Made by a program: the position numbers and the translations under genes. Of a stretch of 63,029 nucleotides of DNA, positions 1,361 to 63,029 are shown piece after piece. A model generated the notes under the pieces. It did no database searches. It was not told the origin of the DNA and was given only the letters and a program-made list of their open reading frames with translations. Source of the stretch: an uncultured Oscillospiraceae bacterium (lineage in GTDB: Bacteria; Bacillota; Clostridia; Oscillospirales; Oscillospiraceae). The stretch spans positions 1 to 63,029 of the forward strand of contig CANQRM010000019.1 in NCBI GenBank assembly GCA_947626265.1. Reading direction: 5' to 3'. The first letter of the stretch is position 1. Each line of letters begins with the position of its first letter.

Positions 1361-2893
1361 ATGGAGCAATACGTCATGTATCTGCGAAAATCCCGCTTTG
1401 ACCGTGACTATGCCGAGTTCAGTGTAGAGGAAACACTCAAGCGCCATAAGGCGATCTTGGACAAGCTGGCGAGTGATCGTGGGTACCGTATTGCAAAAGT
1501 TTATTATGAGGTCGTTTCAGGCGAGTCCATCGCCGCCAGGCCGCAGATCCAGGAGATGCTGGCCGAGGTGAGCGAGGAGTTCTACGCGGGGGTCCTGGTA
1601 GTGGACCTGGAACGTCTGGCCCGCGGCAACGGCGCCGACCAGGCGTACATCAGCCAGGTGTTCCAGTTCTCCGGCACCAAGATCATCACCCCCAACAAAA
1701 TTTATGACCCCAGCAATGAGTTTGACGAAGAATACTTTGAGTTTGGCCTGTTCATGAGCCGCCGGGAATACAAGACCATCAACCGGCGTCTTATCCGGGG
1801 CCGTGAAAGCTCCGCCGCCGAGGGAAAGTATCTGGGCAGTATCGCCCCCTACGGCTACCAGCGCATCAAGCTGCCCAACGAAAAGGGCTACTCCCTGGAG
1901 CCTCTGCCGGAGGAAGCGGAGGTGGTAAGGACCGTCTTTGATATGTACCTGGGCGGCGACGGGACTGTGATGATCGCCAATTACCTGAACGACCACCACA
2001 TCCCCACCCGGCATGGAGAGCTGTGGACCTACTCTTCCATCTTCAACATGCTCAAAAACCCGGTCTACTGCGGCAAGATACGCCGGGGCTGGTGCAAGCA
2101 GGTCAAGCGCATCGAAAACGGCGAGGTCAAGCGGCATATCAAGCACCTGCAGGACCCCAGCGACTATGAGATATTCCAGGGCCTGCACCCGCCGCTCATC
2201 AGCGAGGACATCTTCACCGAGGCCCAGCGCGTCCGCACAGAGCGCCCATCCAACGCCCATGTCAAAGAGGACTTTGAACTGCAAAACGCCTTTGCCGGTC
2301 TTATCTACTGCGCCAAGTGCGGCAAGCGCATAGGCCGCACCGTTTCCAACCGGGGCGTCCCCCGGTTCCGGTGCGTCAACCACCGCAACTGCCACACCGC
2401 CAGCTACGACTACGCCAAGACCGAGGAGCAGGTCATCTCCGCTCTGCGCCAATGGGTAAAGGGCTACACGGTGGAGATCGAAAACGTGGGCTTTGAGAGC
2501 GAGGCGGATTCCTGCCGGGACAGGATCGGGCAGCTCACCGCCGAACTGGAAAAGCTGAACGCCCAACTGGATAACGCTTTTGACCTGGTGGAACAGGGCC
2601 TCTACACAAAAGAGGAGTTCCGCCGGCGCAAAGAGAAGATCACCGGCAGCCAGAAAGCCGTCCAGTCCCAGCTTGACAGCCTCTATGAACGGCTGCCCGC
2701 CCTGGAGGAACAGGCGGACTTCCATGAGAACGTGATACCCCAGACGGAGGCGCTGCTGGACAGCTACGACCAGATGGCCGCGACAGAGCGCAACAAGCTC
2801 CTGAAGGAGATACTCTACCGCATCGAGTACCGCAAGGACCATGACGGCGCGCTGGAGATCGACATCTATCCGAAGATACCCATGAAACAGTAG
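1361..2893 (+). CDS. Large serine site-specific recombinase of the element
   Basis: This 510-residue protein should excise and integrate the element through attachment-site recombination. The N-terminal resolvase domain begins MEQYVMYLRKSRFDRD, with the probable catalytic Ser at residue 11 and downstream arginines in DLERLARGNG. The Recombinase domain follows (about 160-280, with the APYGYQR motif). A zinc ribbon (CAKCGKRIGR, then CVNHRNC) and a C-terminal coiled coil of about 390-455 complete the usual large-serine-integrase plan at full length. The start has AAAGGAGG at 1347-1354. The gene points at the element end, with the stop 21 bp from the proposed att site. Confidence 0.93.
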   Translation: MEQYVMYLRKSRFDRDYAEFSVEETLKRHKAILDKLASDRGYRIAKVYYEVVSGESIAARPQIQEMLAEVSEEFYAGVLVVDLERLARGNGADQAYISQVFQFSGTKIITPNKIYDPSNEFDEEYFEFGLFMSRREYKTINRRLIRGRESSAAEGKYLGSIAPYGYQRIKLPNEKGYSLEPLPEEAEVVRTVFDMYLGGDGTVMIANYLNDHHIPTRHGELWTYSSIFNMLKNPVYCGKIRRGWCKQVKRIENGEVKRHIKHLQDPSDYEIFQGLHPPLISEDIFTEAQRVRTERPSNAHVKEDFELQNAFAGLIYCAKCGKRIGRTVSNRGVPRFRCVNHRNCHTASYDYAKTEEQVISALRQWVKGYTVEIENVGFESEADSCRDRIGQLTAELEKLNAQLDNAFDLVEQGLYTKEEFRRRKEKITGSQKAVQSQLDSLYERLPALEEQADFHENVIPQTEALLDSYDQMAATERNKLLKEILYRIEYRKDHDGALEIDIYPKIPMKQ

Positions 2894-40703: not shown

Positions 40704-42584
40704 ATGAAAGCTATGAAGAAAACCGTTTCCCTCATTCTGGCCGTCATCCTGGCCCTGTCCCTGTGCGTGTTCGGCTATGCCGCTCCCGGCCCCACCATCG
40801 ACACCAGCAAGACGGCATCGCTGAACATCTATAAGTACGATCTGACCAGCGCCGAGGCCGCGGGTGCCTGGGACGCCGGGGCCCATGTGTCCTCCGGCGT
40901 CTACGACAGCTCCGTGAACGACGCCCTGGGAGGGGCGGTCAACTACGCCATCAAAGGCGTAAAATTCACCTATCTGAAGGTGGCCGACATCGCTACCTAT
41001 ACCAGCTCGGACGGCAGCGGCCAGACGGCCACCACCGTTTACGCCATGCCGGTGGGCTCTACCACCACCTCTTTCCTCACCGCTCTGGGTCTTTCCTATG
41101 AGAACGCCCACCACCAGACCGAGGACATCTACTACTTCACTTCCGACACCCTGATCTCCGCGTTGGAAAAGGCCCTCGCGGACAATTCGACCGTCACGAA
41201 GAACGCCCTGGAGATCTATATCGGCTCCAACGGCGGCGTGACCATGCCGGAAACGGATGAATACGGCCACAGCTCCGCCAGCGGCCTGCCCCTGGGCCTC
41301 TACCTTCTCGTGGAGACCGCCGTGCCCGAAAATGTCACCAGCACCACGGACCCCTTCTTGGTATCTCTGCCCATGACCTCCATTGACGGCGCTTCCTGGA
41401 ACTACGATGTGACCGTGTACCCCAAGAACAACACCGGCGCGCCTACCCTTGAAAAGACCGTCCGTGAGGCCAGCGCCTCCACCGGCAAGAATACCGGCGC
41501 GGCTGACAGCATCTCGGACGGCTATGCCCACACCGCCACCGGCTCGGACGGCGATGTGATGCAGTATCAGATCATTTCCACGCTGCCCACCATCACCAGC
41601 GCAGCCTCCCAGCTCACCACCTATACCTTCGTGGACAATCTGAGCCAGGGCCTCGCCTATAACCAGAATGACGTTGTGATCGAGTTCTTCAAGGACAAGA
41701 GCTGCACCGACAAGATCACCACCTGGGCCCAGAGCGAGGGCAAGTTCAGCGCCGACTACACCGCCGAGGACGGCGGGGCGGCCATGACCATCACCATGAC
41801 CGGCACGGGCCTCTCGGAGATCAACACCAGCACCGAAGTATACGGCCCCACCGGGCAGCAGCAGGGGTACTCCGCCTGCACCATGCGTATCACTTACAGC
41901 GCCACCATCCATTCTGACGCCAGCGTGGTCTATGGCAATACTGGCAACCCCAACAACGTGACCCTCACCTGGCGCCGGACCAACGCCGAATATTACGACA
42001 CGCTCAAAGATGACTGTCATGTGTATGTCTATGGCCTCGACCTGACCAAGCAGTTTTCCGATGGCGCGGGCCACTTTGAGAACGTGAAGATGCTCCTCCA
42101 CAACGACACGGACAACTACTACGTCCAGGCCACCCAGCAGGACGGCATCTATTTTGTGACCGGCCACACCACCGAGGAGGCCCAGGCCACCGTGTTCATC
42201 CCCACGGCAGAGGGGAAGATCATCGTCAAGGGCTTGGAGGACGACGCCTATTCCATCACCGAAACCGCCACCGATGACGGCTTCGTGCTGCTCAAGGAGC
42301 CCGTTAAGGTCGTTATCACCACCGCAGACGGCACCGTTTGTGATGTGTGCAAAAAGCCCATGCTGACGGCCTCCGCCACGGTGAACGGCAACGCGGCGGA
42401 GATGGCGGCCTCCAACGAATCTGCAAACGCTTTCGTCACCCTGACCGTGGTGAACACCAAGGGCTTCGACCTGCCCCAGACAGGCGGCAGAGGCACCTGG
42501 CTCTATGCCACCATCGGGATCGTCCTCATGGCGGGCGCTGCGGCGGCTATCTTTATTTTCAGCCGGCGGCGCAGCCATAGATGA
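40704..42584 (+). CDS. SpaH/EbpB-like major pilin with LPQTG anchor
   Basis: This 626-residue major pilin has a signal peptide (1-27). The pilin motif with the polymerising Lys is VTVYPKNN (Lys241). A central isopeptide-type domain (about 245-420), a CnaB-like C-terminal domain and LPQTG (590-594) with membrane helix and basic tail follow. Its start is 16 bp after the adhesin stop with AAAGGAG. The class C sortases immediately downstream should polymerise it through Lys241. Confidence 0.92.
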   Translation: MKAMKKTVSLILAVILALSLCVFGYAAPGPTIDTSKTASLNIYKYDLTSAEAAGAWDAGAHVSSGVYDSSVNDALGGAVNYAIKGVKFTYLKVADIATYTSSDGSGQTATTVYAMPVGSTTTSFLTALGLSYENAHHQTEDIYYFTSDTLISALEKALADNSTVTKNALEIYIGSNGGVTMPETDEYGHSSASGLPLGLYLLVETAVPENVTSTTDPFLVSLPMTSIDGASWNYDVTVYPKNNTGAPTLEKTVREASASTGKNTGAADSISDGYAHTATGSDGDVMQYQIISTLPTITSAASQLTTYTFVDNLSQGLAYNQNDVVIEFFKDKSCTDKITTWAQSEGKFSADYTAEDGGAAMTITMTGTGLSEINTSTEVYGPTGQQQGYSACTMRITYSATIHSDASVVYGNTGNPNNVTLTWRRTNAEYYDTLKDDCHVYVYGLDLTKQFSDGAGHFENVKMLLHNDTDNYYVQATQQDGIYFVTGHTTEEAQATVFIPTAEGKIIVKGLEDDAYSITETATDDGFVLLKEPVKVVITTADGTVCDVCKKPMLTASATVNGNAAEMAASNESANAFVTLTVVNTKGFDLPQTGGRGTWLYATIGIVLMAGAAAAIFIFSRRRSHR

Positions 42585-43462
42585 GCTGGCTCAAAATAGC
42601 CGTCTGCGCGCTGGTATTCCTGCTGGCGCTGGGTATCACGCTCTATCCATTCGTCAGCAACTACCTCGCGGAGAAATATCAATCCACCGCGATGGCCGCC
42701 TACTCTGACGCCATCTCCCGCATGGACGATACCACGCTCATGCGGGAGCGTGAGGCGGCGCAGCAGTTCAACCGCAGCATCGGGGTCATCTCTATGAGTG
42801 GCCCCGATGCCATTTCCCGCCTCAACGCCGCACGGGACGGCTATGATGACCTGTTGAACGTGAACAACAACGGCATCATGGGCTATATCCGCATCCCGGC
42901 CATTGATGTGGAGCTGCCCATATATCACGGCGTAGAAAACAGCACCTTGGAACAGGGCGTGGGGCATCTGCCCGGTTCGTCCCTGCCCGTGGGCGGCGAA
43001 AGCACCCACGCGGTCCTCGCGGCCCATTCCGGCCTTGCCTCCCAGCGTATGTTCACCGACCTGGAACAACTGCGGGAGGGCGACAGGTTCTATCTGAGCG
43101 TTCTGGGCGAGACACTGGCTTATGAGATCGACCAAATGCTGGTCGTAGAACCGGATGACGCTGCCGCATTGGAGCTTCAGCCGGGAATGGACCTCGTGAC
43201 ACTCATTACTTGTACGCCGTATGCAGTTAATACCCACCGCCTGCTTGTCCGGGGAAAGCGCGTCCCATACGAGCCGGCGCAAGATGAGGTCGTGGAGGCC
43301 GAAGCCGCACCGGAGCCCTCCACCTGGCGGCGGCAGTACGTCAAGGGCTTGGCCTTGGGCGTTGGGATCATGGCGGGATGCAGCGCCGTGGCGGTCATTG
43401 GATGGAGGCTCTATCTCGCAAAGCACACACGCAGGAGGTATGGCAAGCATGAGGCACGTTAA
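42581..43462 (+). CDS. Class C sortase (pilin polymerase)
   Basis: This 293-residue membrane transpeptidase has an N-terminal helix (about 5-25), the sortase core and a C-terminal membrane helix (about 250-275), the class C layout. The catalytic triad reads His149 (AAHSG), Cys211 (LITCTPYAVNTHR) and Arg220. The start overlaps the pilin stop as ATGA. It builds the pilin polymer. Confidence 0.93.
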   Translation: MSWLKIAVCALVFLLALGITLYPFVSNYLAEKYQSTAMAAYSDAISRMDDTTLMREREAAQQFNRSIGVISMSGPDAISRLNAARDGYDDLLNVNNNGIMGYIRIPAIDVELPIYHGVENSTLEQGVGHLPGSSLPVGGESTHAVLAAHSGLASQRMFTDLEQLREGDRFYLSVLGETLAYEIDQMLVVEPDDAAALELQPGMDLVTLITCTPYAVNTHRLLVRGKRVPYEPAQDEVVEAEAAPEPSTWRRQYVKGLALGVGIMAGCSAVAVIGWRLYLAKHTRRRYGKHEAR

Positions 43463-44228
43463 ACCGCATCCGAGTCGCAGTGCAAAGACGCGGGCGCTTA
43501 TCTCCCTGGCCTGCGCCATCTTCCTCGCGGGCTTTATCGTCTGCTTCTGGCCCCAGCTCGTGGGCGTCCATTTGGACCGGCAGGCCCATAAAGCTGTGAG
43601 CGACTTCTTCGATATGTCCGCCGCGGGAGAGAATGACGCCGACGTGACCTTTGAATATGTGGAGGGTCCCATGCCATCGCCCACGCCCAGGCCATATTCG
43701 GAGCTATATGACGCAATGGCGCGGTACAACGCCCAGATCTACGCCAACGGACAGACAGGGCTTTGCGATGCCTGGGCATACCAGCAGCCCTCCTTTGACC
43801 TCACCGCCTACGGCGTGGAGAATGGCGCGATGGGCGTGATCTCCATACCCAAAATGGACGTGGAGCTGCCTATTTATCTTGGCGCGACCTATGACAACAT
43901 GGCCGCTGGCGCGGTGCATTTGTCCCAGACCAGCCTTCCCATCGGCGGCCCGGACACCAACTGCGTGATCGCCGCCCACCGGGGATGGTATGGCGCGCTT
44001 TATTTTCGATATATTGACGCGCTTGAAGTGAGCGACCAGGTGTATATCACAAATCTATGGGAAACGCTGACCTATGAGGTCACGTCCATCAAGGTCATAA
44101 AGCCCAACGACATCAACGAGATACTGATCCAGCCGGGGCGGGATATGCTGACGCTGCTCACCTGCCACCCCTACGCCTCCGGGGGCAAGTACAGATATGT
44201 GGTCTACTGTGACCGCGTGGCCGGATAA
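43449..44228 (+). CDS. Second class C-like sortase
   Basis: This 259-residue sortase has one N-terminal membrane helix and the triad His177 (AAHRG), Cys239 (LLTCHPYASGGKYR) and Arg249. It lacks the C-terminal membrane helix of the first. ATG 43449 has CAGGAGG about 9 nt upstream; an alternative in-frame ATG at 43440 is too close to that site. It overlaps the first sortase by 14 nt. It may attach the tip adhesin or anchor the polymer. Confidence 0.88.
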   Translation: MRHVKPHPSRSAKTRALISLACAIFLAGFIVCFWPQLVGVHLDRQAHKAVSDFFDMSAAGENDADVTFEYVEGPMPSPTPRPYSELYDAMARYNAQIYANGQTGLCDAWAYQQPSFDLTAYGVENGAMGVISIPKMDVELPIYLGATYDNMAAGAVHLSQTSLPIGGPDTNCVIAAHRGWYGALYFRYIDALEVSDQVYITNLWETLTYEVTSIKVIKPNDINEILIQPGRDMLTLLTCHPYASGGKYRYVVYCDRVAG

Positions 44229-45058: not shown

Positions 45059-45880
45059 ATGGCAAAGCCGAAAGTGATCGCCGTTGCGAACCAAAAAGGC
45101 GGCGTAGGGAAAAGCACCACTGTATTCAATCTGGGCGCGGGCCTCGCGGCCCAGGGAAAGCGTGTGCTTCTCCTGGATGTTGACCCCCAGGGCGACCTCA
45201 CGAAAATGCTGGGCCTGCGCCAGCCCCACGACTTGAAGATGACCCTGGCGACCGTGATGAATGATGTGGTGGAGGACATCAGCAGAGAAGGACATCCCGA
45301 AATCCTCCACCATGACGAGGGCTTCGACTTCATTCCCGGCAATCGCGCCCTGTCCGCCGTGGAGGTCGGCCTTGTGAACGTGATGAGCCGCGAGACGGTC
45401 TTGAAGCAGTATCTGGCCGGCGTCAAGAAGGACTATGACTATGTGCTGCTGGACTGCCGCCCGTCGCTGGGTATGCTGGTCCTCAACTGCCTGGCCGCCG
45501 CCGATTACGTCATTATCCCGGTCCAGGCCGACTACCTTGCCGCCGAGGATATGACGGAGCTGGTGGGGACGGTGAACAGCCTCAAACGGCAGGTGAACCG
45601 CAATCTCAAAATCGGCGGCGTGGTCCTCACGATGGTCAATAATACCGCGTTCCGCATGGATATTGTGGAATCGGTCAGAAATGGCATCGGCAAGAGCATC
45701 CCCATATTTGATTCCGTGATCCCCGCCACGGTGCGTCTGGCGGAGGTCAGCCTGGAGGACAAGAGTATCTTCCGTCACGACCCCCATGGAAAAGCGGCGG
45801 AGGCATACCGAAATTTAGTAAAGGAGGTGCTGGACATTGGCGAGAAAAAGCGCAGCCGGTCTGCTGACCTCGCTCGATGA
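45059..45880 (+). CDS. parA: ParA-like ATPase, copy 1
   Basis: This 273-residue Soj/ParA ATPase acts in partition of plasmid-like elements. The deviant Walker A is NQKGGVGKSTT (about 12-22), Walker B is YVLLDCRPSLG, and DVDPQGDLTKML is typical. ATG 45059 follows AAGGAGG. The gene overlaps its parB by 44 nt. It differs from copy 2 at five residues, including Met/Lys in TAFR(M/K)D. Confidence 0.92.
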   Translation: MAKPKVIAVANQKGGVGKSTTVFNLGAGLAAQGKRVLLLDVDPQGDLTKMLGLRQPHDLKMTLATVMNDVVEDISREGHPEILHHDEGFDFIPGNRALSAVEVGLVNVMSRETVLKQYLAGVKKDYDYVLLDCRPSLGMLVLNCLAAADYVIIPVQADYLAAEDMTELVGTVNSLKRQVNRNLKIGGVVLTMVNNTAFRMDIVESVRNGIGKSIPIFDSVIPATVRLAEVSLEDKSIFRHDPHGKAAEAYRNLVKEVLDIGEKKRSRSADLAR

Positions 45881-47850: not shown

Positions 47851-48338
47851 ATCCGTATCTTTTTGGGGAAATGGATATTACTACTACACTACTGCGAAAT
47901 GATGTAAGGAATAAAAAGATGCTCCAACTCAAGCAAAGCCTACACCTGCCGGAATTGGAGCACTATTTGTCTTAAAACGGTAATACGTTTCAGAAAGCGT
48001 GTCAGCCCGGTGGTGCGAAATCAAACTTTTTGAAGATGTAGACAACTGTAATCATTATGAAATCCTACCAACATTTTGGTTTACATATATTTTATTTCCA
48101 TTAGTAACGATTGTCAATTCATGTGTTCTGAAAAGTAATACAAAGATATATATAATTATCTCTTATATTTCGTGACATTACACAATTGTAAAGGCTTATA
48201 TCTTTACCATAATATTGTGAATCTGCGTATGTATGGAAGGAAGCCATGACCACAAAATATAGCGTGTAAGTATACATTGCGACATATAGTTTCATGGTGT
48301 CATTTGTAAAAGTATAACTTTATGATATTGTCTTACAT
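47851..48338. other. AT-rich intergenic region between the foreign gene and parA copy 2
   Basis: Nearly 490 bp with low GC and no open frame with a ribosome-binding site. It should contain the promoter of the minus-strand membrane protein and that of the second parA. No repeat ends, RNA gene or attachment site was recognised. Confidence 0.4.
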
Positions 48339-48365
48339 ATCCGTCCGTGCTGCCCACGGACGGAT
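48339..48365 (+). promoter_or_regulatory. Leader hairpin upstream of parA copy 2
   Basis: A perfect 11-bp inverted repeat (48339-48349 with 48355-48365, ATCCGTCCGTG arm) with a 5-nt loop, 26 bp before parA. Stem pairing is kept in both copies although loop and adjacent bases differ. Confidence 0.55.
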
Positions 48366-48390
48366 CATTTCATGTAAAGGAGGAACCCAA

Positions 48391-49212
48391 ATGGCAAAAC
48401 CGAAAGTGATCGCCGTGGCCAACCAAAAAGGCGGCGTAGGGAAAAGCACCACCGTGTTCAACCTGGGGGCGGGCCTCGCGGCCCAGGGAAAGCGTGTGTT
48501 GCTCCTGGACGTTGACCCCCAGGGCGACCTTACGAAAATGCTGGGCTTGCGCCAGCCCCACGACTTGAAGATGACCCTGGCGACCGTGATGAATGATGTG
48601 GTGGAGGACATCAGCAGAGAGGGACATCCCGAAATCCTACACCATGACGAGGGCTTTGACTTCATTCCCGGCAACCGCGCCCTGTCCGCCGTGGAGGTCG
48701 GCCTTGTGAACGTCATGAGCCGCGAGACCGTCTTGAAGCAGTATCTGGCCGGCGTCAAGAAGGACTACGACTATGTGCTGCTTGATTGCCGCCCGTCGCT
48801 GGGTATGCTGGTCCTCAACTGCCTGGCCGCTGCCGATTACGTCATTATCCCGGTCCAGGCCGACTACCTTGCCGCCGAGGATATGACGGAGCTGGTGGGG
48901 ACGGTGAACAGCCTCAAACGGCAGGTTAACCGCAATCTCAAAATCGGCGGCGTGGTCCTCACGATGGTCAACAATACCGCGTTTCGCAAGGATATTGTGG
49001 AATCGGTCAGGAACGGCATCGGAAAGAGCATCCCCATATTCGATTCCGTAATCCCCGCCACAGTGCGTCTGGCGGAGGTCAGCCTGGAGGACAAGAGTAT
49101 CTTCCGCCACGATCCCCGTGGAAAGGCGGCGGAAGCATACCGAAATCTGGTTAAGGAGGTGCTGAACATTGGCGAGAAAAAGCGCAGCCGGTCTGTTGAC
49201 CTCACTCGATGA
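48391..49212 (+). CDS. parA: ParA-like ATPase, copy 2
   Basis: 273 residues, nearly identical in protein to copy 1 but with many silent differences. NQKGGVGKST and LLDCRPSLG motifs are intact. ATG 48391 follows AAAGGAGGA; an in-frame ATG at 48322 lies before the leader hairpin and is unlikely. It overlaps the complete parB by 44 nt. Confidence 0.92.
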   Translation: MAKPKVIAVANQKGGVGKSTTVFNLGAGLAAQGKRVLLLDVDPQGDLTKMLGLRQPHDLKMTLATVMNDVVEDISREGHPEILHHDEGFDFIPGNRALSAVEVGLVNVMSRETVLKQYLAGVKKDYDYVLLDCRPSLGMLVLNCLAAADYVIIPVQADYLAAEDMTELVGTVNSLKRQVNRNLKIGGVVLTMVNNTAFRKDIVESVRNGIGKSIPIFDSVIPATVRLAEVSLEDKSIFRHDPRGKAAEAYRNLVKEVLNIGEKKRSRSVDLTR

Positions 49213-50113
49213 CCTGTTTACCACCCAGGCTCAGCGCGACGAGGCAAAGAGAGAACACCTCATTGACATTCCATTGGACGAGATCAGCGACTTCCCCGAC
49301 CATCCGTTCAAGGTGCGGATAGACGAGGACATGACCGACCTCGCAGACAGCATCAAGTCCCACGGCGTACTTGTCCCGGCGCTGGTCCGGCCCGTGGGGG
49401 ACAGCTATCAGATGGTGGCGGGGCACCGCCGCAAGGCCGCCTCAGAGCTGGCCGGCGTGGAAACGCTGCCGTGCATTGTCCGGGATATGACCGACGACGA
49501 GGCCATCATCGTCATGGTGGACAGCAATCTTCAGCGGGAGAAGATACTTCCCAGTGAAAAGGCGTTTGCCTACAAAATGAAGCTGGACGCCATGAAACGG
49601 CAGCAAGGTGAAAGGACTGATTTAACTTGTGACCCGGTGGGGCACAAGTTGTCCGGGATGCGTTCTGTAGAGGTTTTAGCCAACAACACAAACGATAGCA
49701 AGACCCAAATCCAACGCTATATCCGATTGACCTCGCTCACCCCGGAGCTGCTCTCTCTGGTGGACGAGAACAAAATCGCCATGCGGCCCGCTGTGGAGCT
49801 GTCCTATCTGTCCCAGGCCGAGCAAAAGGCCCTTTGCGATACGATGGAGAAGGAGGATTGTACCCCGTCCCACGCCCAGGCTATCAAAATGCGGAAGTTT
49901 TCTGAGGATGGCAAGTTGAGCCAAGACGTTATTCTCTCCATCATGGAGGAGGAAAAACCAAACCAGGTGGAGAAGTTCACGATGCCCAAAAACAAGTTGA
50001 GCCAGTATTTTGAGCCAGGAACGCCCTCGCAGACGATAGAGGACACTATTTTGAAGGCGCTGGAAATGTACCGCCAGCGGCAACGGCAGCGGCAGCGTGA
50101 TATGGAGCGGTGA
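49169..50113 (+). CDS. parB: ParB-like partition protein, complete copy
   Basis: This 314-residue ParB has an N-terminal ParB/sulfiredoxin domain (about 28-120, AGHRRKAASELAG) and the central HTH (about 150-215, with TQIQRYIRLTSLTPELLSL). A Gln/Arg-rich tail follows, ending in alternating Gln-Arg residues. TTG 49169 is the start, with AAGGAGGTG 7 nt upstream. It works with ParA in segregation of an excised element. Confidence 0.9.
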   Translation: MARKSAAGLLTSLDDLFTTQAQRDEAKREHLIDIPLDEISDFPDHPFKVRIDEDMTDLADSIKSHGVLVPALVRPVGDSYQMVAGHRRKAASELAGVETLPCIVRDMTDDEAIIVMVDSNLQREKILPSEKAFAYKMKLDAMKRQQGERTDLTCDPVGHKLSGMRSVEVLANNTNDSKTQIQRYIRLTSLTPELLSLVDENKIAMRPAVELSYLSQAEQKALCDTMEKEDCTPSHAQAIKMRKFSEDGKLSQDVILSIMEEEKPNQVEKFTMPKNKLSQYFEPGTPSQTIEDTILKALEMYRQRQRQRQRDMER

Positions 50114-51036: not shown

Positions 51037-51303
51037 ATGGCAGAACGAATCAATGGCGGATACACCATCATCCAGTCCGTCAGCGTGGGCAACACCGAGT
51101 TCGTCCTCGGTGAAAATCAGAAAGCTCCCGACCCCTATGTGACATGGGAATGTAGGAACGAAACGAATTATTACTGGGGCCATTACTTTGGCAGCTATTA
51201 CCGGGCGCGCACAGACCTCTTTGAAAGGGCCAGAGACCTGTCCCAGCGTGAAGCAGAACGGGCGGAGGCCAAGGCACGTCGGGGAAAGGAGCGTGAGCGG
51301 TGA
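51037..51303 (+). CDS. ICE accessory protein, 88 residues
   Basis: A short protein whose N-terminus (IIQSVSVGNTEFVLGENQKA) repeats the module of the preceding protein; the C-terminus is Glu/Arg-rich and helical. Function unknown. It abuts the previous stop and its stop touches the next start. Confidence 0.68.
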   Translation: MAERINGGYTIIQSVSVGNTEFVLGENQKAPDPYVTWECRNETNYYWGHYFGSYYRARTDLFERARDLSQREAERAEAKARRGKERER

Positions 51304-52250
51304 TGGAAATGACGATCAGGCCCATGACGCCCCAGGAGAGGATGTATTCATACACCCAGAGCCAGCAGATCATGACGCAGACCGGCTGCATCGGCCATCT
51401 GCGCGGTGATTTGGACAGCGACGGGAACGGCTTTTTTACTTCCTGGGATGACCACAGGACAGACCTTAAAACAGATGCTTTCAAGGCGGAGCTGGACGAT
51501 GTGGTGAACGCCCTGCGTTTTGACCCGCAGTACGGCGGCGTTCTCAAAGATCGCAAGTCGCTGGGTGCCTACTGTTATTACATCCCGGAGAGCGGCTTCG
51601 GCAACGACCGGGAATACGGCTTCCGCGCCGACACAGCACAGTACACCTATTTTCTACGGCTCAATCCCAACCGGGGAGAGTACAACTTCTATATCTACTG
51701 CTACCGGCGAGAGTGGCTCGACCACCATCTGAACCGGGCAAAAGGGGGCATTCGCTTCATCAACTCCCGCTACAAAGAGCTGTTCCGCATCTCAGACGGT
51801 GACAGCATCCGTATCAACCGCACGGATGGTACGCATACAGACAGGACCTGCCGCTATATCGACGATTCCCATTTGGAGGTGGGAAAGGGTCTTTATCAAA
51901 TCTGCGAGTTTGCTGAGCTGATGGAACGGGCCGGAAACACTGTGGTCCCCCTCCGCTCCTCTCTGCCGGAGCAGTGCTATGTCTATCTTCCTACTACCCA
52001 GGAGATCGGCATCGTGAAGAAGGGCGAGAGCGGATACACCAGAAACGATGGGACGACCACTGTGCAAAAGGTCAACCAGGACCTCGTAGAAAAGTGCAAT
52101 CAAAGCGAGGGCGTGACCAAGGCACAGGCCGCAGCCATGTTTGCCGGGTCCATGTTCGGCTGGGCTGCCCCCGCCGCCGATCCAGCCAACTATGACGAGC
52201 AGGGCAAGCTCATGAAGCCCAGGCGCGCCGACAGAGGTGACGCGCGATAA
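51303..52250 (+). CDS. ICE accessory protein of the YodL-like type, paralogue 1
   Basis: A 315-residue soluble protein of a kind regularly found in these ICEs before the methylase/helicase. Motifs include YSYTQSQQIMTQTGCIGHLR, RFDPQYGGVLKD and GSMFGWAAPAADPANYDEQG. Function unknown. ATG 51303 follows AGGAGCG; GTG 51300 is also in frame. The next gene encodes a close paralogue. Confidence 0.7.
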   Translation: MEMTIRPMTPQERMYSYTQSQQIMTQTGCIGHLRGDLDSDGNGFFTSWDDHRTDLKTDAFKAELDDVVNALRFDPQYGGVLKDRKSLGAYCYYIPESGFGNDREYGFRADTAQYTYFLRLNPNRGEYNFYIYCYRREWLDHHLNRAKGGIRFINSRYKELFRISDGDSIRINRTDGTHTDRTCRYIDDSHLEVGKGLYQICEFAELMERAGNTVVPLRSSLPEQCYVYLPTTQEIGIVKKGESGYTRNDGTTTVQKVNQDLVEKCNQSEGVTKAQAAAMFAGSMFGWAAPAADPANYDEQGKLMKPRRADRGDAR

Positions 52251-52272: not shown

Positions 52273-53229
52273 ATGGACATGACGATACGCCCCATGACAA
52301 AGCCGGAGCGTATGTATTCCTACACCCAGAGCCAGCAGATCATGGGGCAGACCGGCTGCATCGGCCATCTGCGCAGTGATTTGGGCACCTACGGGGGTAA
52401 CTTTTTCTGTTTGTGGGAAAAACACAACGCAGACCTTGATACAAACGCTTTCAATGTGGAGTTTAACAGCATATCAGACGCCATGCGCTTTGATCCGCAG
52501 TACGGCGGCATCCTCAAGGACCAGCAATCGATGCGGGACTACTGCTGCCGCCACCCGGATAGCAGCTTCGGCAACGACCGGGAATACGGCTTCCGCGCCG
52601 ACACAGCGCAGTACGCCTATCTTCTGCGGCTAAACCCCAACCAAGACGAGAACAACCTTTATATCTACTGCTACCGGCGCGACCGGCTCGACCGGCATCT
52701 GAAGCAAGCAGAACGGGGCATCCGCTTCATCAGCCCCAGCTACAAGGAACTGTTCCGCATCCCGGATGGCGACAGCATCCGTATCATCCGCAGGGACGGT
52801 ACGCACACCGACAAGACCTGCCGCTACATCGACGATGCCCATGTGGAGGTGGGCAGCGGCTGGGACCGAATATTCCACATCTGCCAATTTGCCGAGCAGA
52901 TGGAGCGGTGCGGAAATACCGTGATCCCTCTGCGGTCCTCTCTGCCGGAGCAGTGCTATGTCTATCTCCCCACTACCCAGGAGATCGGCATCGTGAAGAA
53001 GGGTGAGTCAGGTTATTACCGCAGCGACCTTTCTACTGTGTACGGCGAGGACGGGCAGGATTTCGTCGATGAGATGAACCGCAGCGGCGGCGTAACCAAG
53101 GCGCAGGCGGCGGCAATGAGCGCCGGCTCCATGTTCGGCTGGGCTACCCCTGCCGCCGACCCCTCCAACTATGACGAGCAGGGCATAGCGATCAAACCCA
53201 AGCACATTGACCGGGGTGACGCCAGATGA
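52273..53229 (+). CDS. ICE accessory protein of the YodL-like type, paralogue 2
   Basis: This 318-residue protein aligns end to end with the preceding one. The block FGNDREYGFRADTAQY is shared, and the CYVYLPTTQEIGIVKKGESG block is identical. The pair arose by tandem duplication or was captured as two alleles. ATG 52273 follows AAAGGAG. It overlaps the next gene by 4 nt. Confidence 0.7.
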   Translation: MDMTIRPMTKPERMYSYTQSQQIMGQTGCIGHLRSDLGTYGGNFFCLWEKHNADLDTNAFNVEFNSISDAMRFDPQYGGILKDQQSMRDYCCRHPDSSFGNDREYGFRADTAQYAYLLRLNPNQDENNLYIYCYRRDRLDRHLKQAERGIRFISPSYKELFRIPDGDSIRIIRRDGTHTDKTCRYIDDAHVEVGSGWDRIFHICQFAEQMERCGNTVIPLRSSLPEQCYVYLPTTQEIGIVKKGESGYYRSDLSTVYGEDGQDFVDEMNRSGGVTKAQAAAMSAGSMFGWATPAADPSNYDEQGIAIKPKHIDRGDAR

Positions 53230-54377: not shown

Positions 54378-57300
54378 ATGGCGAGAAGAACGGAACTCTT
54401 GGCCGAGCTGTACCAGCGGACGCAGCGAGAGGTCACGGCACCACAGGAATGGCAGAAGTTTTTGGCCTCCGCCTGCCGGAACTACCGGCTCTCCTTCGAG
54501 GAACAGCTTTTGGTCTATGCCCAGCGCCCAGACGCCACCGCCGTGCTGGAGATTGAACGCTGGAACAGGCAGTTCGGGCGCTGGGTCAACCGGGGAGCTA
54601 CCGGCATCCCCGTCTTTGACAGGGAATATGAGGGTCGGTCCCGGCTCAAATACTTCTTTGATGTTTCCGACACCCACCCCGGCAGATTTGCGCGCCCCCT
54701 GCCCATTTGGGTCATGCGCCCGGAGTATGAGGCCGAGGTCACAGAGACCCTGGAAAACAGCTTCGGGGAGTTGGAGAACAAATACACCTTCGCCCAGGCG
54801 CTCATATCCGCCGCGAAAAACGCTGTCCTGGACAATATGCCGGACTACCTCTCCGAGCTGCGTCAATATACAACGGACAGCTTTTTGGAGGAACTGGATG
54901 AACTCAACGTAGAGGTCATCTACCGGACCGCACTCCAGAACAGCACAGCATATATGCTTCTGGCCCGCTGCGGCCAGGACCCCGGAGTTTATTTTGACGA
55001 TGACGACTTCCGGGATGTGGTGAATTTCAACACGCCGGACACGTTGAACGCCTTGGGCAAGGCCACCAGCGACATCGCCCAAATGTGCCTTTCCGAGATC
55101 GCCCGGACCGCGCTTAACCTGCAAAGAGAAGCAGAAAAAGAGAATCGCACATTTGCGTTGGAGTCAGAATGGGATTATCCTGTCCCCAGAACAACAAATC
55201 AAACGCCAGAAAGGAGCGCAGACGATGAACGAGATAGGCTACACGATGGTGAACGGGTACAGGATACCCAACTTTCTGCCCCATCAGGAGCCGGAGGTCC
55301 AGCTTGGGAAGTACGCGCTTCTGCGCCGGAGGTTCCTGAAGCAGCACCGGCCTATAACCTTCACGAATCTTCTGACCAGCGGGAAACTGAACCCGCATCT
55401 GATGGAGATCGACCGGCAGGCCAGAGCCAGGATAGCCGAAATCACGGAGCAGATGGCGAAGGCCGAGGGCGTGACGGAGGAGCTGAAGGCCCAGGACCAG
55501 ATGAAGTGGGTGGGCCTGATGAACAACATCAAGAACGCGGCGGAACAGACGGTGTTTCAGGAATTGATCTACGCATAACCAATATCGTGGCCGAGAGCGC
55601 GAGGAGCAGCCAGCTCCCCGCGCTTTTGGATGAAAAGCCCATCATGGCCCTGCTATCCAATCGGGACAACGATCTTCTTTTCACCAAAGAGCAGATAGAG
55701 CTTTTCTTTTCTCTGCACCCCGGCATTGACGAGCGGACCGAGTACATCTGGCAGGCATACCCTTACCGTTTTACCGAACTTCTCATAGACGGAGAGCGGT
55801 ACGGATATGTGGCCCAGGACGACGGCCTTGTGATGTGGGCCGGGTCCTACACCTCCCCCACAAAGGAAGCACTGTACTCCTGGACCCTTATTGCCGAATG
55901 GGTGGGCCAGATCATCGACCGTCAGGAGTACGGCATCAACACCACTTCCAAGAAACTGCCAGACCAGGATGAGCAGCAAATGCTCATGTTCGGTTTCGGC
56001 GGCGAGGAACCGGCATCGTCTTTGGCGGATGAAGTACAGATTTCCTTTCTATCCGACCTCCGGCTCCCCCAGCAGGTCATTGACGAGGCCCTGTGCATAG
56101 GAGCAAACCACGAAAACAGCCGCCTCACCATCTGTGCGTGGATGATGAAGGACAAGCCCCTGGAGGATAACGCCCGGTTCCTGCGGGCACATTACGGCAC
56201 CAACGGCGCGGGCTTCTATCTGAATGGCAGACAGTATTCTATATGGTATACCCCAGAGGGCATCCGCATCGACACCGGCGACACCACCCAGCGGCCCGGA
56301 GCTACCGTCGTCACCTGGGACGAGGCCGCGAGGCGCATCCGGGAGCTTCTGGACCTGGGCCGGTATATGCCCCAGCGGGAGCTTGACCAAGCGCCCAGCT
56401 TTGAGCGCAGCGAACTGGCGGACAAGCTCTTGTATCTTTGTCAAGATGTTGAGGGAGATTCACGGGATACCTTGCTCCCTGTCACTATGGGCATCTATAA
56501 CACTCACCTGGGATTCCCGGAAGAAAGCGCCGCCATCCAGTCCTTATTGGAGCAGCCGGAGAGCTTGCAGATCCTTGTGGATGAGTTCCGCGAGTTTACG
56601 GACGCATACGAAAAGGACCCGGATATACTGCGTTTCCACAATCACAGGCCCAAAGAACTGCTGCAACGGCTCTCTGACCTGCAACGGGAACCAGTCATCT
56701 TCACCGCCGCCGAGGACTACGACCCCCAGCGGCGGTTTTTTATATCCGGCGATGAGATCGACCAGGTTCTGCGGGGCAGTACCGACTACCGCCTCGGCGT
56801 CTACTCCTACTTCCTTGCCCATACAGACCATGATGAGCGCCGAAAATATCTGAGAAAACTCCATGGCGAGTACAGCGGCTATCATGGCGACAACGACAAC
56901 GCCACTTGGAACAGCAAGGGTCTTTCTTTCAGCCATGGCACTATTGGTTCCCCCTATGCCCAAGTTGAACTGACATGGCCGAAGATAGAAAAGCGAGTCT
57001 CAGCCATGATAGATGCCGGGACATTCCTGGACGATGCTGACCGCGCCGCTATGCCCGACTATGAGCGGGAAAGACTTGCCCGACAGGTTTATGGCTTCTT
57101 TGCCAATGCCTCCGCCGTTTATCAGCGGCCTTTCCCAGATGGAATTGGCTACATTGACGCTTACAAACTTATATCGGAGCAACTGCGAGACCCGGACAGC
57201 GTGGAGCAGATATATCAGATGATGCTCCGGCTGCGGGTGAGTACGCCCCCGGATGACCGTGCTCATGACCTGCGGGAACAGGTGTTCATCGACTTCTCTG

Positions 57301-60300
57301 CCTACCGTGACGGCACATTCTCCCTGTTCGGGGAACACCGTGAGCCAAAGGAACGCCCGGAGGCCGCGCCCATATCCCATGACGAGGAATACGAGGCGGA
57401 GATGGCCCATGAAATACTGCATTTCTACGGAGAGTTTGACGGTCCCGGCTATCTGGGATCGTTGGGCGCTGTCAGCTACGATGACGCCATGGTAAAGACC
57501 CGGCAGGCCATACGGACGCCGGAGGGCCGGGCGCAGCTCATTCTCGTTCTGGAATCCTTTTTGAATGAGGCCAACACCCAGGAGGAGATATATGCCGACA
57601 TAGAACTGACCATTGAATCTCTGCGGCAGATGGATGATGAGCAGTCTCCTTTAATGGACCAGGCAAAAAAGCTCATAAATGAATACTGCCAGAAAGAGTT
57701 TCAGAGCGACGGCGACTTCTCTAATCTTTCCGATGTGGGCGTGGCGTACACCACCACCGAGGATGAACGGCACACGATCCAGGTCAGTGTCAATCTTATT
57801 GACTGGTCCCTGGACTTTTATCTGGATGATAAGCTGGTATACCAGAGGGTATATGACTCCCTCCAGGACCTAATTGACGCTGAATTAGAGTACCTTGACT
57901 TCAATGACCTCACTGACGTTCCGCTCCCGGAGGAAGAAGCGGAGATAGAAGCCCCGGCCAGCGGGCCGGGGCTACCAGCCGAAAAAGAACCGGAGGGCGG
58001 GAAACCCGCCCCTGCCTACGACCTGGGATTCGGTCATCTGGGGAATGGGCTCACTGTCTGGAACCGTCTGCGGACGGTGGATGGGGACTATCAGACCGTG
58101 GCTCATATCGAGCCGGACCGCTCTGTGACCATCTATGACACGGATATGCCGGACGAGGTGCGGCAGCGGATCTACGATGTGGCGGCCACCTCCGACGCCA
58201 GAATATCCGCGACCCAGGACGCGCCCGTATTTTCCACGCCTCCCCAGGTGCGGGAGCCGGATGTTGCAGAAAAGGCCATCCCTGCGCCCCCGCCCAGGCG
58301 GGAGCGCGTCACGTTTACCACCCTTCGCCCGGAGATACCTGCCGGCCAGCGCCACAACTTCCGCATCACCGACCCGGAATTGGGCTACGGCACCCCAGGC
58401 GAGAAGTTTGCCGCCAATGTCAAGGCCATCCGCGCCTTGAAGCGCATTGAGGCCGAGGAACGCCTTGCCACGCCGGAGGAACAGGAAGTCTTGTCCCGGT
58501 ATGTGGGATGGGGCGGTCTCGCGGATTGCTTCGATGAGCGACACAGCAAGTATCAGGAATTGAAAAACCTACTCAATGAGGACGAATACGCAGCGGCCAG
58601 GGCCAGTTCCCTGACCGCTTTTTATACGTCCCCGGTCATCATAGAGGCCATGTATAAGGCGTTGGCCCAGATGGGCTTTCAGAGCGGCAACATCCTGGAA
58701 CCCGCCTGCGGCGTCGGCAACTTCATCGGCATGATCCCGGAGGATATGGCTGGCAGCCATGCCTACGGTGTGGAGATCGACAGCATATCGGGCCGCATAG
58801 CCCAGCAGCTCTATCAGTTGAGCAGTATATCCGTAAACGGCTTTGAGAAGGTGCAGATGCCGGACAGCTTCTTTGATGTGGCCATCGGCAACGTGCCCTT
58901 TGGCGACCTGCGCGTGGCGGACAGGCGGTACGACAAGCACCACTGGCTCATTCACGACTACTTCTTCGGCAAGGCGCTGGACAAGGTGCGGCCTGGCGGC
59001 GTCATCGCGTTCATATCCAGCAAGGGCACCATGGACAAGGAGAGCAGTGCTTTCCGCAAGTATCTTGCCCAGCGCGCCGACCTTATTGGTGCTATCCGGC
59101 TGCCCGATAACGCTTTCAAACGCAACGCCGGCACGGAAGTCACCAGCGACATCATCTTTCTCCAGAAGCGGGACCGGCTCACCGACATCGAGCCGGATTG
59201 GGTGCATTTGGACACCACCGAGGATGGCATCCGCATGAACAGCTACTTTGTCCAGCACCCGGAGATGGTGCTGGGCAACATGGTCATGGAGTCCACCCGC
59301 TTTGGCATGGACAGCGCCTGCAAAGCCTATGAGGACGCCGACCTTTCCGAGCTGCTGGCCGAGGCCATCACCAACCTCCATGCGGAGATCACCGCCTACG
59401 AGCAGGACGAGCTGGACGAGGAACAGGACGAATCCATCCCCGCAGACCCCTCCATCCGCAACTTCAGCTTTGCCATTGTGGACGGCGTGATCTACTACCG
59501 GGAGAACTCTGTCATGCGCCCGGTCAGGACCTCTGCCACGGCGGAGAACCGCATCCGGGGCATGATAGCCCTCCGGGACTGTGTGCGCCGACTCATTGAG
59601 ATGCAAACCGAAAACTACCCGGACGGCGAGATCTCCGCGCAGCAGCAGAAGCTCAACCGGCTCTATGATGATTTCGTGCGGAAGTATGACCGGCTCAACA
59701 CCCGCGGCAACCGCCTTGCCTTTGAGGATGATTCCAGCTACTACCTGCTTTGCTCCCTGGAAGTGTACGACAAGGAGAACAACTTTGAGCGCAAGGCCGA
59801 TATGTTCACCAAACGCACCATCCGGCCCCATGAACCCGTCACCCATGTGGACACCGCGGCGGAGGCCCTGGCCGTGTCCATCACCGAGAAGGCCCGCGTG
59901 GATATGGCCTATATGTCCGAGCTGTCTGGCATGACGCCGGAGGCGCTGGAGGATGAACTGGCGGGGGTCATTTTTCGGGATGTGAACTGCGCCGAGGACC
60001 CCAAGGATATTACAGAGGAACAGATAGACCTGCTTCTGTACCCCCTGGTGCCCGCAGACGAGTATCTGTCCGGGAACGTCCGCAAGAAGCTCCGCATGGC
60101 CCAGGCCATGCGGGAGGCTCTACCGCCCGAAGAAAAAAGCCGGCTGGACCGGAACGTGTCGGCGCTGGAGGCAGTGCAGCCCCAGGACCTGACTGCGGGC
60201 GAGATCGGCGTCCGTATCGGCGCCAACTGGGTGCCCATTTCCGATTATGAGGATTTTATGTATGAGCTTTTTGGGACATCCTACTATGCACGGCAAAAAA

Positions 60301-61566
60301 TCAAAATCACCCATTCCAAGTTCAGCGGCGAGTGGAATATCTCCAACAAGACCTACGACCGGGTCAACATCAAGGCCCGCACCACCTACGGCACAGACCG
60401 GGTGAACGCATACCGTATCTTTGAGCAGACGCTCAATCAGAAGGATGTGCGTGTATTCGATTATGTGGAGGACCCCAATACAGGCAAGAAAAAGCCCATT
60501 TTCAACGCCAGGGAAACGGCCATTGCCCAAGACCGGCAGGAGCTTATCAAGCAGAAGTTCCAGGAATGGGTCTGGCGCGACATCGACCGCCGTGAGAGGC
60601 TGTGCCACATTTACAACGAGACTTTCAATGCTGTCCGGCCCCGTGAGTACGACGGCTCCCATCTCCAGTTTCCCGGTATGAACCCAGAGATCACGCTCCG
60701 GCCCCATCAAATCAATGCCATCGCCCATGTCATCTATGGAGGCAATACCCTGTTGGCCCATGAAGTTGGCGCGGGCAAGACCTATGAAATGGCCGCCGCT
60801 GCCATGGAGATGAAGCGGCTCGGCCTATGCACGAAATCGCTGTTTGTCGTGCCGAACCACATCACCGGCCAGTGGGCATCCGAGTTTTTGCAGCTCTATC
60901 CCTCTGCCAATCTTCTGGTGGTCACAAAACGGGACTTTGAAACGGCGCGCCGGAAGAAGATATGCGCCCGGATCGCCACCGGTGACTACGATGCCGTCAT
61001 CATTGGCCACAGCCAGTTGGAGAAGATCCCTATGTCTGCGGAGCGGCAGAGATACCTATTATGGAAGCAGATAGAGGAGATCAAAATGGCGATCTCGGAA
61101 GCCAAGAGAGGAGACGGGCCGCGATACACTGTCAAACAGATGGAGAAAACGAAGCACTCACTGAAAACGCGCCTGGATCGGCTCAATGATACCAGCCGAA
61201 AGGACAATGTGGTGGATTTTGAGGAGCTTGGCATTGACAGGCTGTTCATCGACGAGAGCCACTATTTCAAGAATCTGTACGTCGTGACCAAGATGCAGAA
61301 CGTAGGCGGCATATCCCAGACGGACGCCCAGAAATCCAGCGATCTCTATTTGAAAACGCAGTATATGGACGAGCTTACCGACTACCGGGGCACCATCTTT
61401 GCCACCGGCACTCCCATATCCAACAGCATGGTGGAGCTTTATACCATCCAGCGATACCTGCAGCACCAGGTGCTGGAGGAGATGGGTCTGGTCTTTTTTG
61501 ACGACTGGGCCAGCAACTTTGGCGAGACTGTTACGGCCATCGAGCTTACGCCAGAGGGCTATAATT

Positions 61567-61571
<5 letters not shown>
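54378..61571 (+). CDS. Giant ICE DNA methylase/SNF2-like helicase, truncated at the C-terminus
   Basis: 2397 residues remain of a protein that normally runs several hundred residues longer. The N-terminal ArdC-like region (about 1-250) is followed by low-complexity sequence (about 283-400) that is the shadow of tnpV in another frame. After accessory domains comes an N6-adenine methylase with EPACGVGNFIG at 1441 and NVPFGDL at 1505. The helicase part has Walker A EVGAGKT (2129-2135) and DESHYF at 2292. The frame leaves homologous sequence after AIELTPEG and stops three codons later, where the second element begins, so the second helicase lobe is missing. ATG 54378 follows AGGAGGT. Antirestriction or DNA processing during transfer is inferred. 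Confidence 0.85.
55225..55578 (+). CDS. tnpV: TnpV family protein nested out of frame inside the methylase/helicase gene
   Basis: This 117-residue protein lies wholly inside the large ORF in a different frame. It matches the TnpV proteins of Tn4451-type elements: NGYRIPNFLPHQE, LRRRFLKQHRPITFTNLLTS, AKAEGVTEELKAQDQMKWVG and the ending ELIYA. ATG 55225 has its own AAAGGAG with 8 nt spacing. The host frame in this stretch is low-complexity (Asp/Gly/Arg/Pro-rich) with no domain. TnpV function is not established. Confidence 0.87.
   Translation: MNEIGYTMVNGYRIPNFLPHQEPEVQLGKYALLRRRFLKQHRPITFTNLLTSGKLNPHLMEIDRQARARIAEITEQMAKAEGVTEELKAQDQMKWVGLMNNIKNAAEQTVFQELIYA

Positions 61572-63029
<1,458 letters not shown>

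Follow-up and report, generated by a model that had tools for sequence, protein, structure and literature searches.

How one stretch of DNA can hold two genes, and whether it has done so for long, is the question raised by a locus in contig CANQRM010000019.1 of an uncultured Oscillospiraceae bacterium (assembly GCA_947626265.1). The window analysed here, 63,029 nucleotides in length, contains a tnpV gene that lies out of frame within a giant gene of ICE type on the same strand, one of the DNA-handling genes that mobile elements of gut bacteria carry. The initial annotation of this DNA proposed either that the host protein had gained a linker by overprinting or that the two genes evolved as a fixed overlapping pair. 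As described below, the tnpV gene and its giant host gene very probably constitute an old, fixed, same-strand overlapping pair, a reading based on comparison of homologous loci.

The tnpV gene and its host in the window

The features of the locus are collected in Table 1. A complete TnpV-family gene with a dedicated ribosome-binding site at the right spacing had been recognized at the outset, and both assignments stand. In a Pfam scan, the window TnpV matches PF14198 with an E-value of 1.1e-40 and 138.4 bits, well over the family cut-off of 27 bits, and the match extends over positions 2-111 of the 111 in the profile, which places the protein in the family. The list of open reading frames opens this frame at an upstream TTG (position 55153, 141 aa); the ATG that is equipped with the ribosome site is at 55225. 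No other Pfam family, and no nuclease domain, matches TnpV at an E-value of 1 or better. A search of NCBIfam gave only a weak match to IcmW, far under the cut-off, a PADLOC search gave none, and comparison of the sequence with solved structures gave a single, chance-level match (E 0.71). Among the PHROG families, TnpV matches phrog_24764, whose function is unknown. The window's own genome (G000) contains 12 TnpV matches, two of which are fragments at the ends of contigs C57 and C65 and form parts of additional nested copies.

Table 1. Features of the tnpV locus and their positions in the window
Feature	Positions	Strand	Description	Evidence
Host gene, giant ICE protein	54378..61571	+	2397 aa; shortened copy	
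Parts of the host (N-domain, linker, repeated domains, methylase-like and SNF2 parts)	within 54378..61571	+		
Conserved host N-domain	54378..55217	+	Model positions 1-277; query of the host-first searches	
Ribosome-binding site AAAGGAG	55210..55216	+	8 nt 5' of the tnpV ATG	
tnpV (PF14198)	55225..55578	+	117 aa, stop codon ending at 55578; frame +1 relative to the host gene, over host codons 283-400	ORF list, Pfam, constraint, AlphaFold
Host residues 283-400 over tnpV	55225..55578	+	Linker rich in G/D/A/R/E/S/P	AlphaFold, composition
Sequence past the homology with the C57 paralogue	61559..63029	+	Contains the large serine recombinase gene	
Large serine recombinase gene	61756 to window end	+		

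Host residues before 1489 have no Pfam match at an E-value of 1 or better. Beyond this residue, ResIII and SNF2_rel are above the Pfam cut-offs, and an Eco57I methylase and a DEAD match are below. The SNF2_rel match, near the C-terminal end, covers only profile positions 19-139 of 290 in this shortened copy, and the Eco57I adenine-methylase match, upstream of the SNF2 part, has an E-value of 0.00095. The domain make-up appears to fit that of the giant multidomain polyvalent proteins, with methylase and SNF2 parts, of Tn1549-like conjugative elements, as described in the part of the source available (PMC5512222); these are the likely type of the host gene.

The host had been described as an ICE methylase/helicase gene, and a plus-strand open reading frame of SNF2/methylase type is indeed present; the description is to be corrected in that the window carries a shortened copy, whose homology ends at about 61558. 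It is there that the similarity to a paralogue with a longer open frame on contig C57 of the same genome stops. The copy on contig C65 has identical terminal residues and matches the window up to 61625. The host snf2 gene thus looks as though it has been interrupted by an inserted element with a serine recombinase. This putative interruption resembles the situation reported for ICEs of Streptococcus suis, in which mobilizable elements integrate into snf2 genes and carry tnpV as well (PMC9815147, in the part available).

Several other genes of the window can be noted. Directly upstream of the host gene, two genes of 316 and 318 aa (51300-52250 and 52273-53229), neither of which has a Pfam match, are apparent tandem paralogues by eye. 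Two ParA-type ATPase genes (45059-45880 and 48322-49212) are situated near each other, the second being followed by a ParB gene (49169-50113). At 42581-44228, two adjacent sortase genes occur beside pilin-like genes; their sortase domains are at separate places, and the listed frames overlap at their ends.

Conservation of the nested arrangement

Host relatives were collected using a profile of the host N-domain alone, so that TnpV could not bias the sample. With the window's genome included in each count, the profile matched 77 of 394 genomes of the order and 16 of 398 genomes of the phylum. We read 114 of these host-first loci, of which 7 were redundant; the remaining 107 include the window and one other locus of its genome, and further listed host places, often short, were left out. 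A single scan of genome contigs produced one host relative, and the survey therefore rests on genome searches, plasmids, phage records and viral contigs.

In 106 of the 107 loci, TnpV occupies the same place and frame (+1), and the host frame is uninterrupted there. In 103 of them TnpV is full, and in three it is partial: diverged in L101, cut by the contig end in L141, and represented by its first part only in L167. The lone locus lacking TnpV (L102) is a fragment that matches over 44 residues, and its frame is closed 36 nt downstream of the match. Intact host genes devoid of TnpV were not encountered among the 107 loci, nor were close relatives with and without tnpV, which would favour a recent insertion, seen in our samples. 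The fixed overlapping pair envisaged by the initial annotation is thereby upheld: instead of most relatives lacking an open TnpV frame, practically all of those sampled carry it.

A separate set comprised 39 viral, phage and plasmid loci. Ten of these are without an N-domain match and two are redundant; 19 have a full, nested TnpV, two offered less than 450 nt of remaining sequence, and six differ. In L057, the host frame is broken ahead of TnpV; this gene is an exception in the present set and is classed as nested in the comparison with free-standing genes below, being the second piece of a broken host. In L214, TnpV is truncated close to the end of the sequence. TnpV is absent from L217, L220, L222 and L223, the last three of which have a partial N-domain match only. 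On the viral contig L217, the N-domain frame closes 18 nt past the domain, and no tnpV was found nearby. Two plasmid loci found through TnpV, from Streptococcus suis (L046) and Virgibacillus (L047), are nested in the same frame and have a weak N-domain match. By sequence, the place and frame of TnpV are the same across the phylum as sampled.

Open frames beyond chance expectation

The two frames were examined in 133 nested and 68 free-standing tnpV genes, according to the following scheme: (i) Near-identical rows were removed (269 to 206 TnpV), and TnpV matches spanning fewer than 90 profile positions were dropped. (ii) The free-standing sample was hand-picked from the TnpV-first list, with known host places excluded. 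(iii) The expected number of stops was obtained by shuffling synonymous codons within each gene. Five genes (L038, L039, L277, L198 and L253) were placed in neither group. Of these, L038 and L039 seemed nested from the frame alone; their neighbours reveal free-standing tnpV genes in which the host frame is open by chance. L277 has a host match beyond TnpV, but its contig begins just before TnpV.

The nested genes contain no host-frame stops, compared to 319.4 expected (about 2.4 per gene), whereas the free-standing genes contain 337, itself below their shuffle expectation of 392.4. The reciprocal shuffle, of host codons in the nested genes, predicts 261.5 stops in the TnpV frame, and none is observed; stretches of equal length that flank TnpV on either side in these host genes contain 4.0-4.7 stops in that frame on average. 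Past TnpV, the host frame continues for a median of 2099 nt, a value bounded by the length fetched. The stop counts are partly circular, as a nested gene is one with a single open host ORF and a free-standing gene one with at least one stop; the host-first tally is the test that is free of this circularity. Judged by these counts, the overlap is far above chance.

Selection and structure of the two readings

Synonymous and nonsynonymous rates were compared in both frames, as the initial annotation had suggested, with the outcome that TnpV is constrained and the host reading weakly so at best. In the TnpV frame, NN/NS is 0.35 and 0.39 in the two divergence bins and SN/SS is 0.21 in both, with all intervals below 1; by this measure TnpV is under purifying selection. 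For the host reading of nested genes, NS/SS is 0.78 (0.57-1.07) and 0.75 (0.62-0.95), compared to 1.45 and 1.04 for the same frame in free-standing genes. The other ratio, NN/SN, shows no sign of host constraint (1.32 and 1.42 in nested versus 1.10 and 1.39 in free-standing genes). Host residues in the overlap thus appear to be weakly constrained at best. Among distant genes, the host-frame identity above a synonymous shuffle is 0.021 in 137 nested pairs and likewise 0.021 in 70 free-standing pairs. The idea that the overlap is due to conserved host residues is therefore unsupported, their conservation being no better than in tnpV genes that have no host. The host thus needs an open frame and almost no specific residue.

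The predicted structures differ accordingly in character. AlphaFold models TnpV with a mean pLDDT of 86.2 (15 rows), as a short hairpin followed by five helices. In the host, residues 256-417 have a pLDDT below 50, and no secondary structure is predicted from 260 to 419; the underlying host alignment is shallow, with 10 rows, and a pLDDT below 50 is also seen for residues 1-110 and 517-561, such that low confidence alone does not establish disorder. The composition of the linker, rich in G, D, A, R, E, S and P, agrees with the low-confidence coil. The host segment seems to behave as a tolerant linker: open, not extra-conserved, and modelled as coil. Both frames are open beyond chance and the inner one is under amino-acid selection, the pattern looked for in a functional same-strand overlap.

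Probable mode of TnpV expression

The internal ribosome site is retained in the homologues. Of 131 nested starts, 113 have a properly spaced SD core of 6 nt or longer in front of them, compared to 15 of 2648 controls (every frame +1 start codon inside the host N-domain); for each nested gene the best among the possible starts around the predicted position was taken, which favours the nested score somewhat. The other 18 of the 131 genes are without a 6-nt core, and in two of the 133 nested genes a start codon is missing from this region altogether. Loss of the site in most relatives, the outcome that would have weighed against the pairing, was thus not found. Upstream of its start, the TnpV frame is open for a median of 21 codons, and in 39 of the 133 genes a stop in this frame occurs within 10 codons of the expected start, leaving little room for a frameshift fusion. 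The simplest mechanism would be internal initiation on the host mRNA.

In such a scheme, both proteins would be translated from one mRNA. Ribosomes that load at the host start would produce the giant protein, in which the overlap forms a flexible spacer between folded parts, and other ribosomes would load at AAAGGAG and produce TnpV. TnpV would then appear whenever the giant protein does, and, since the spacer would tolerate almost any residues, TnpV could dictate the shared sequence.

History of nested and free-standing tnpV genes

Distances between N-domains and between their TnpV proteins are strongly correlated (Mantel r 0.835, n=139; maximum of 500 permutations 0.123), suggesting that the pair has largely been inherited together. 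In a tree of 206 TnpV genes, the nested label takes 12 changes, compared to a mean of 60 when shuffled; the tree is built on 117 columns with a midpoint root only and cannot tell gain from loss. Under that same root, nested genes occupy the deepest drawn branches. A single clade of free-standing genes was rejected (p_AU 0.014) in a quick tree of 122 rows, to which the set was thinned after removal of 12 long-branch and 5 unsettled rows. The non-monophyly of the free-standing genes fits repeated escape from the host, which is simpler than repeated identical insertion because the place and frame in the host are constant. Copies of tnpV would accordingly have moved out to other mobile contexts on more than one occasion, with decay of the host frame there. 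The free-standing copies in L036, L038 and L039 are 74-75% identical to the window TnpV and adjoin a gene that is 68% identical to the window ParB gene. Their old host frame is recognizable at 40-44%, part of which would be expected from TnpV similarity alone.

It is conceivable, albeit on balance improbable, that the TnpV family originated within the giant host gene: a second reading of the bases for a disordered linker would have given rise to a folded protein, which later escaped repeatedly. TnpV would then have been kept as a fixed partner throughout the phylum before it became the free-standing "transposon gene tnpV", which occurs behind serine recombinases and, in the literature, next to tetracycline-resistance genes. 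Birth inside the host is consistent with the failure of the free-standing genes to form a clade, the deep nested branches and a fold search that gave no relatives.

Putative function of TnpV

TnpV is carried by mobile elements: in the window it lies within an ICE-type gene, and among 66 free-standing loci, 15 have a serine recombinase gene upstream, 14 of which are encoded on the strand of tnpV. For 12 of these 15, the recombinase frame stops no more than 45 nt away from where TnpV starts, the end being exactly 29 nt upstream in nine, a spacing as in a shared operon. In locus L256, a free-standing tnpV (1585-1929, minus strand) is located directly behind a serine recombinase that is 75% identical to that of the window over 253 residues and whose frame runs 43 nt past the start of the TnpV profile. 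Judging from this locus, serine recombinase elements of the window type can carry a tnpV of their own.

In the available text of one published account, a role in excision was postulated for the TnpV of Tn4451 on the grounds of its homology with lambda Xis (PMC3158075), and other published cases include a tnpV that adjoins tet(O) (PMC11913394, also available in part). Fold comparison gave no PDB or viral match at an E-value of 0.001 or better that would support an Xis or winged-helix fold (best 5.5 and 0.57, respectively); the top viral match is an unnamed 1093-residue entry, with a probability of 0.98 at the E-value of 0.57. We suggest tentatively, with somewhat less than even confidence, that TnpV may be a small, helical accessory protein that assists the element in its excision, processing or establishment. 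In the nested form, this accessory protein would be co-produced with the giant protein.

Alternative explanations

The locus could be read as separate, in-line genes (an N-domain gene, tnpV and a helicase gene), the open host frame over tnpV being an accident. Some annotated records can indeed be taken this way: in L042, the listed TnpV is followed, about 1.9 kb downstream, by the start of an SNF2 gene, and in L043 the stretch has a listed TnpV but lacks a listed SNF2 gene. This reading is hardly credible, given that the host frame remains open through TnpV at 106 of the 107 host-first loci, where shuffling predicts about 2.4 stops per gene, that free-standing tnpV genes do carry such stops, and that the host frame runs far beyond TnpV. 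Conversely, the host might be the sole genuine gene, with codon bias having generated the TnpV frame as a side effect. This view might draw on the many long alternative frames in the ORF list of the window, but is extremely improbable: TnpV is a Pfam family also found free-standing, its frame is under purifying selection with a conserved ribosome site, and neighbouring windows contain about 4 stops in the same frame. On the shuffles, the free-standing control and the host-first tally, both the spurious-ORF and the accidental-open-frame readings were rejected.

Two further proposals accept both frames. Programmed frameshifting might join TnpV to the host N-domain in one polypeptide, and the frame is often open slightly upstream; the conserved ATG and SD core, and the nearby upstream stops in part of the genes, make this very unlikely compared to internal initiation. 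Alternatively, tnpV might be a recent selfish insert similar to the out-of-frame HNH insert (ShiLan) of phage methylases, in which the geometry is alike, the host frame being open and looping at the insert (PMC11855218, in the part available). We regard this too as very improbable, since the 107 host-first loci include no intact host devoid of TnpV, no nuclease domain is present, and TnpV divergence tracks that of the host N-domain. We thus favour the old, fixed overlapping pair.

Comparison with known systems and implications

The nearest parallels we found are the HNH insert of phage methylases (PMC11855218) and comS in srfA (PMC12350097), both as described in the available parts of these sources. 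Like tnpV, ShiLan is a small gene out of frame in a DNA-modifying host gene that is stop-free and predicted to form a loop there; unlike tnpV, it is described as a homing insert that encodes a nuclease. The tnpV gene occurs in essentially every intact host homologue sampled, with its own SD site and without an endonuclease domain, and thus does not conform to a homing insert of that kind. In Bacillus subtilis, comS is likewise nested out of frame, in the same sense, within the large gene srfA and has its own function, although the genes and the process are unrelated to those described here. The TnpV of Tn4451 and of C. difficile transposons is the same protein by name, and the available part of that account mentions no overlap (PMC3158075). 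In the main text of the polyvalent-protein paper, the terms "tnpv" and "overlap" each occur 0 times (PMC5512222). We found no description of the tnpV/host overlap in the literature covered, which largely excluded subscription papers.

The initial annotation also held that annotation pipelines drop one of the two genes. This is suggested by the four annotated nested records, each of which lists one gene over the overlap (TnpV in L042 and L043, the host in L046 and L047), their plasmid gene tables being incomplete in that pseudogenes are not listed. The overlap may explain why TnpV or the beginning of the giant protein goes missing when such elements are annotated.

The locus represents a long out-of-frame gene that is kept in essentially every sampled host relative across the phylum. 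The free-standing tnpV genes serve as natural controls that separate the needs of each frame, and the system thereby offers a test bed for the sharing of bases between genes. One stretch of DNA seems long to have encoded two proteins, and the nesting suggests a source for the widespread "transposon" gene tnpV.
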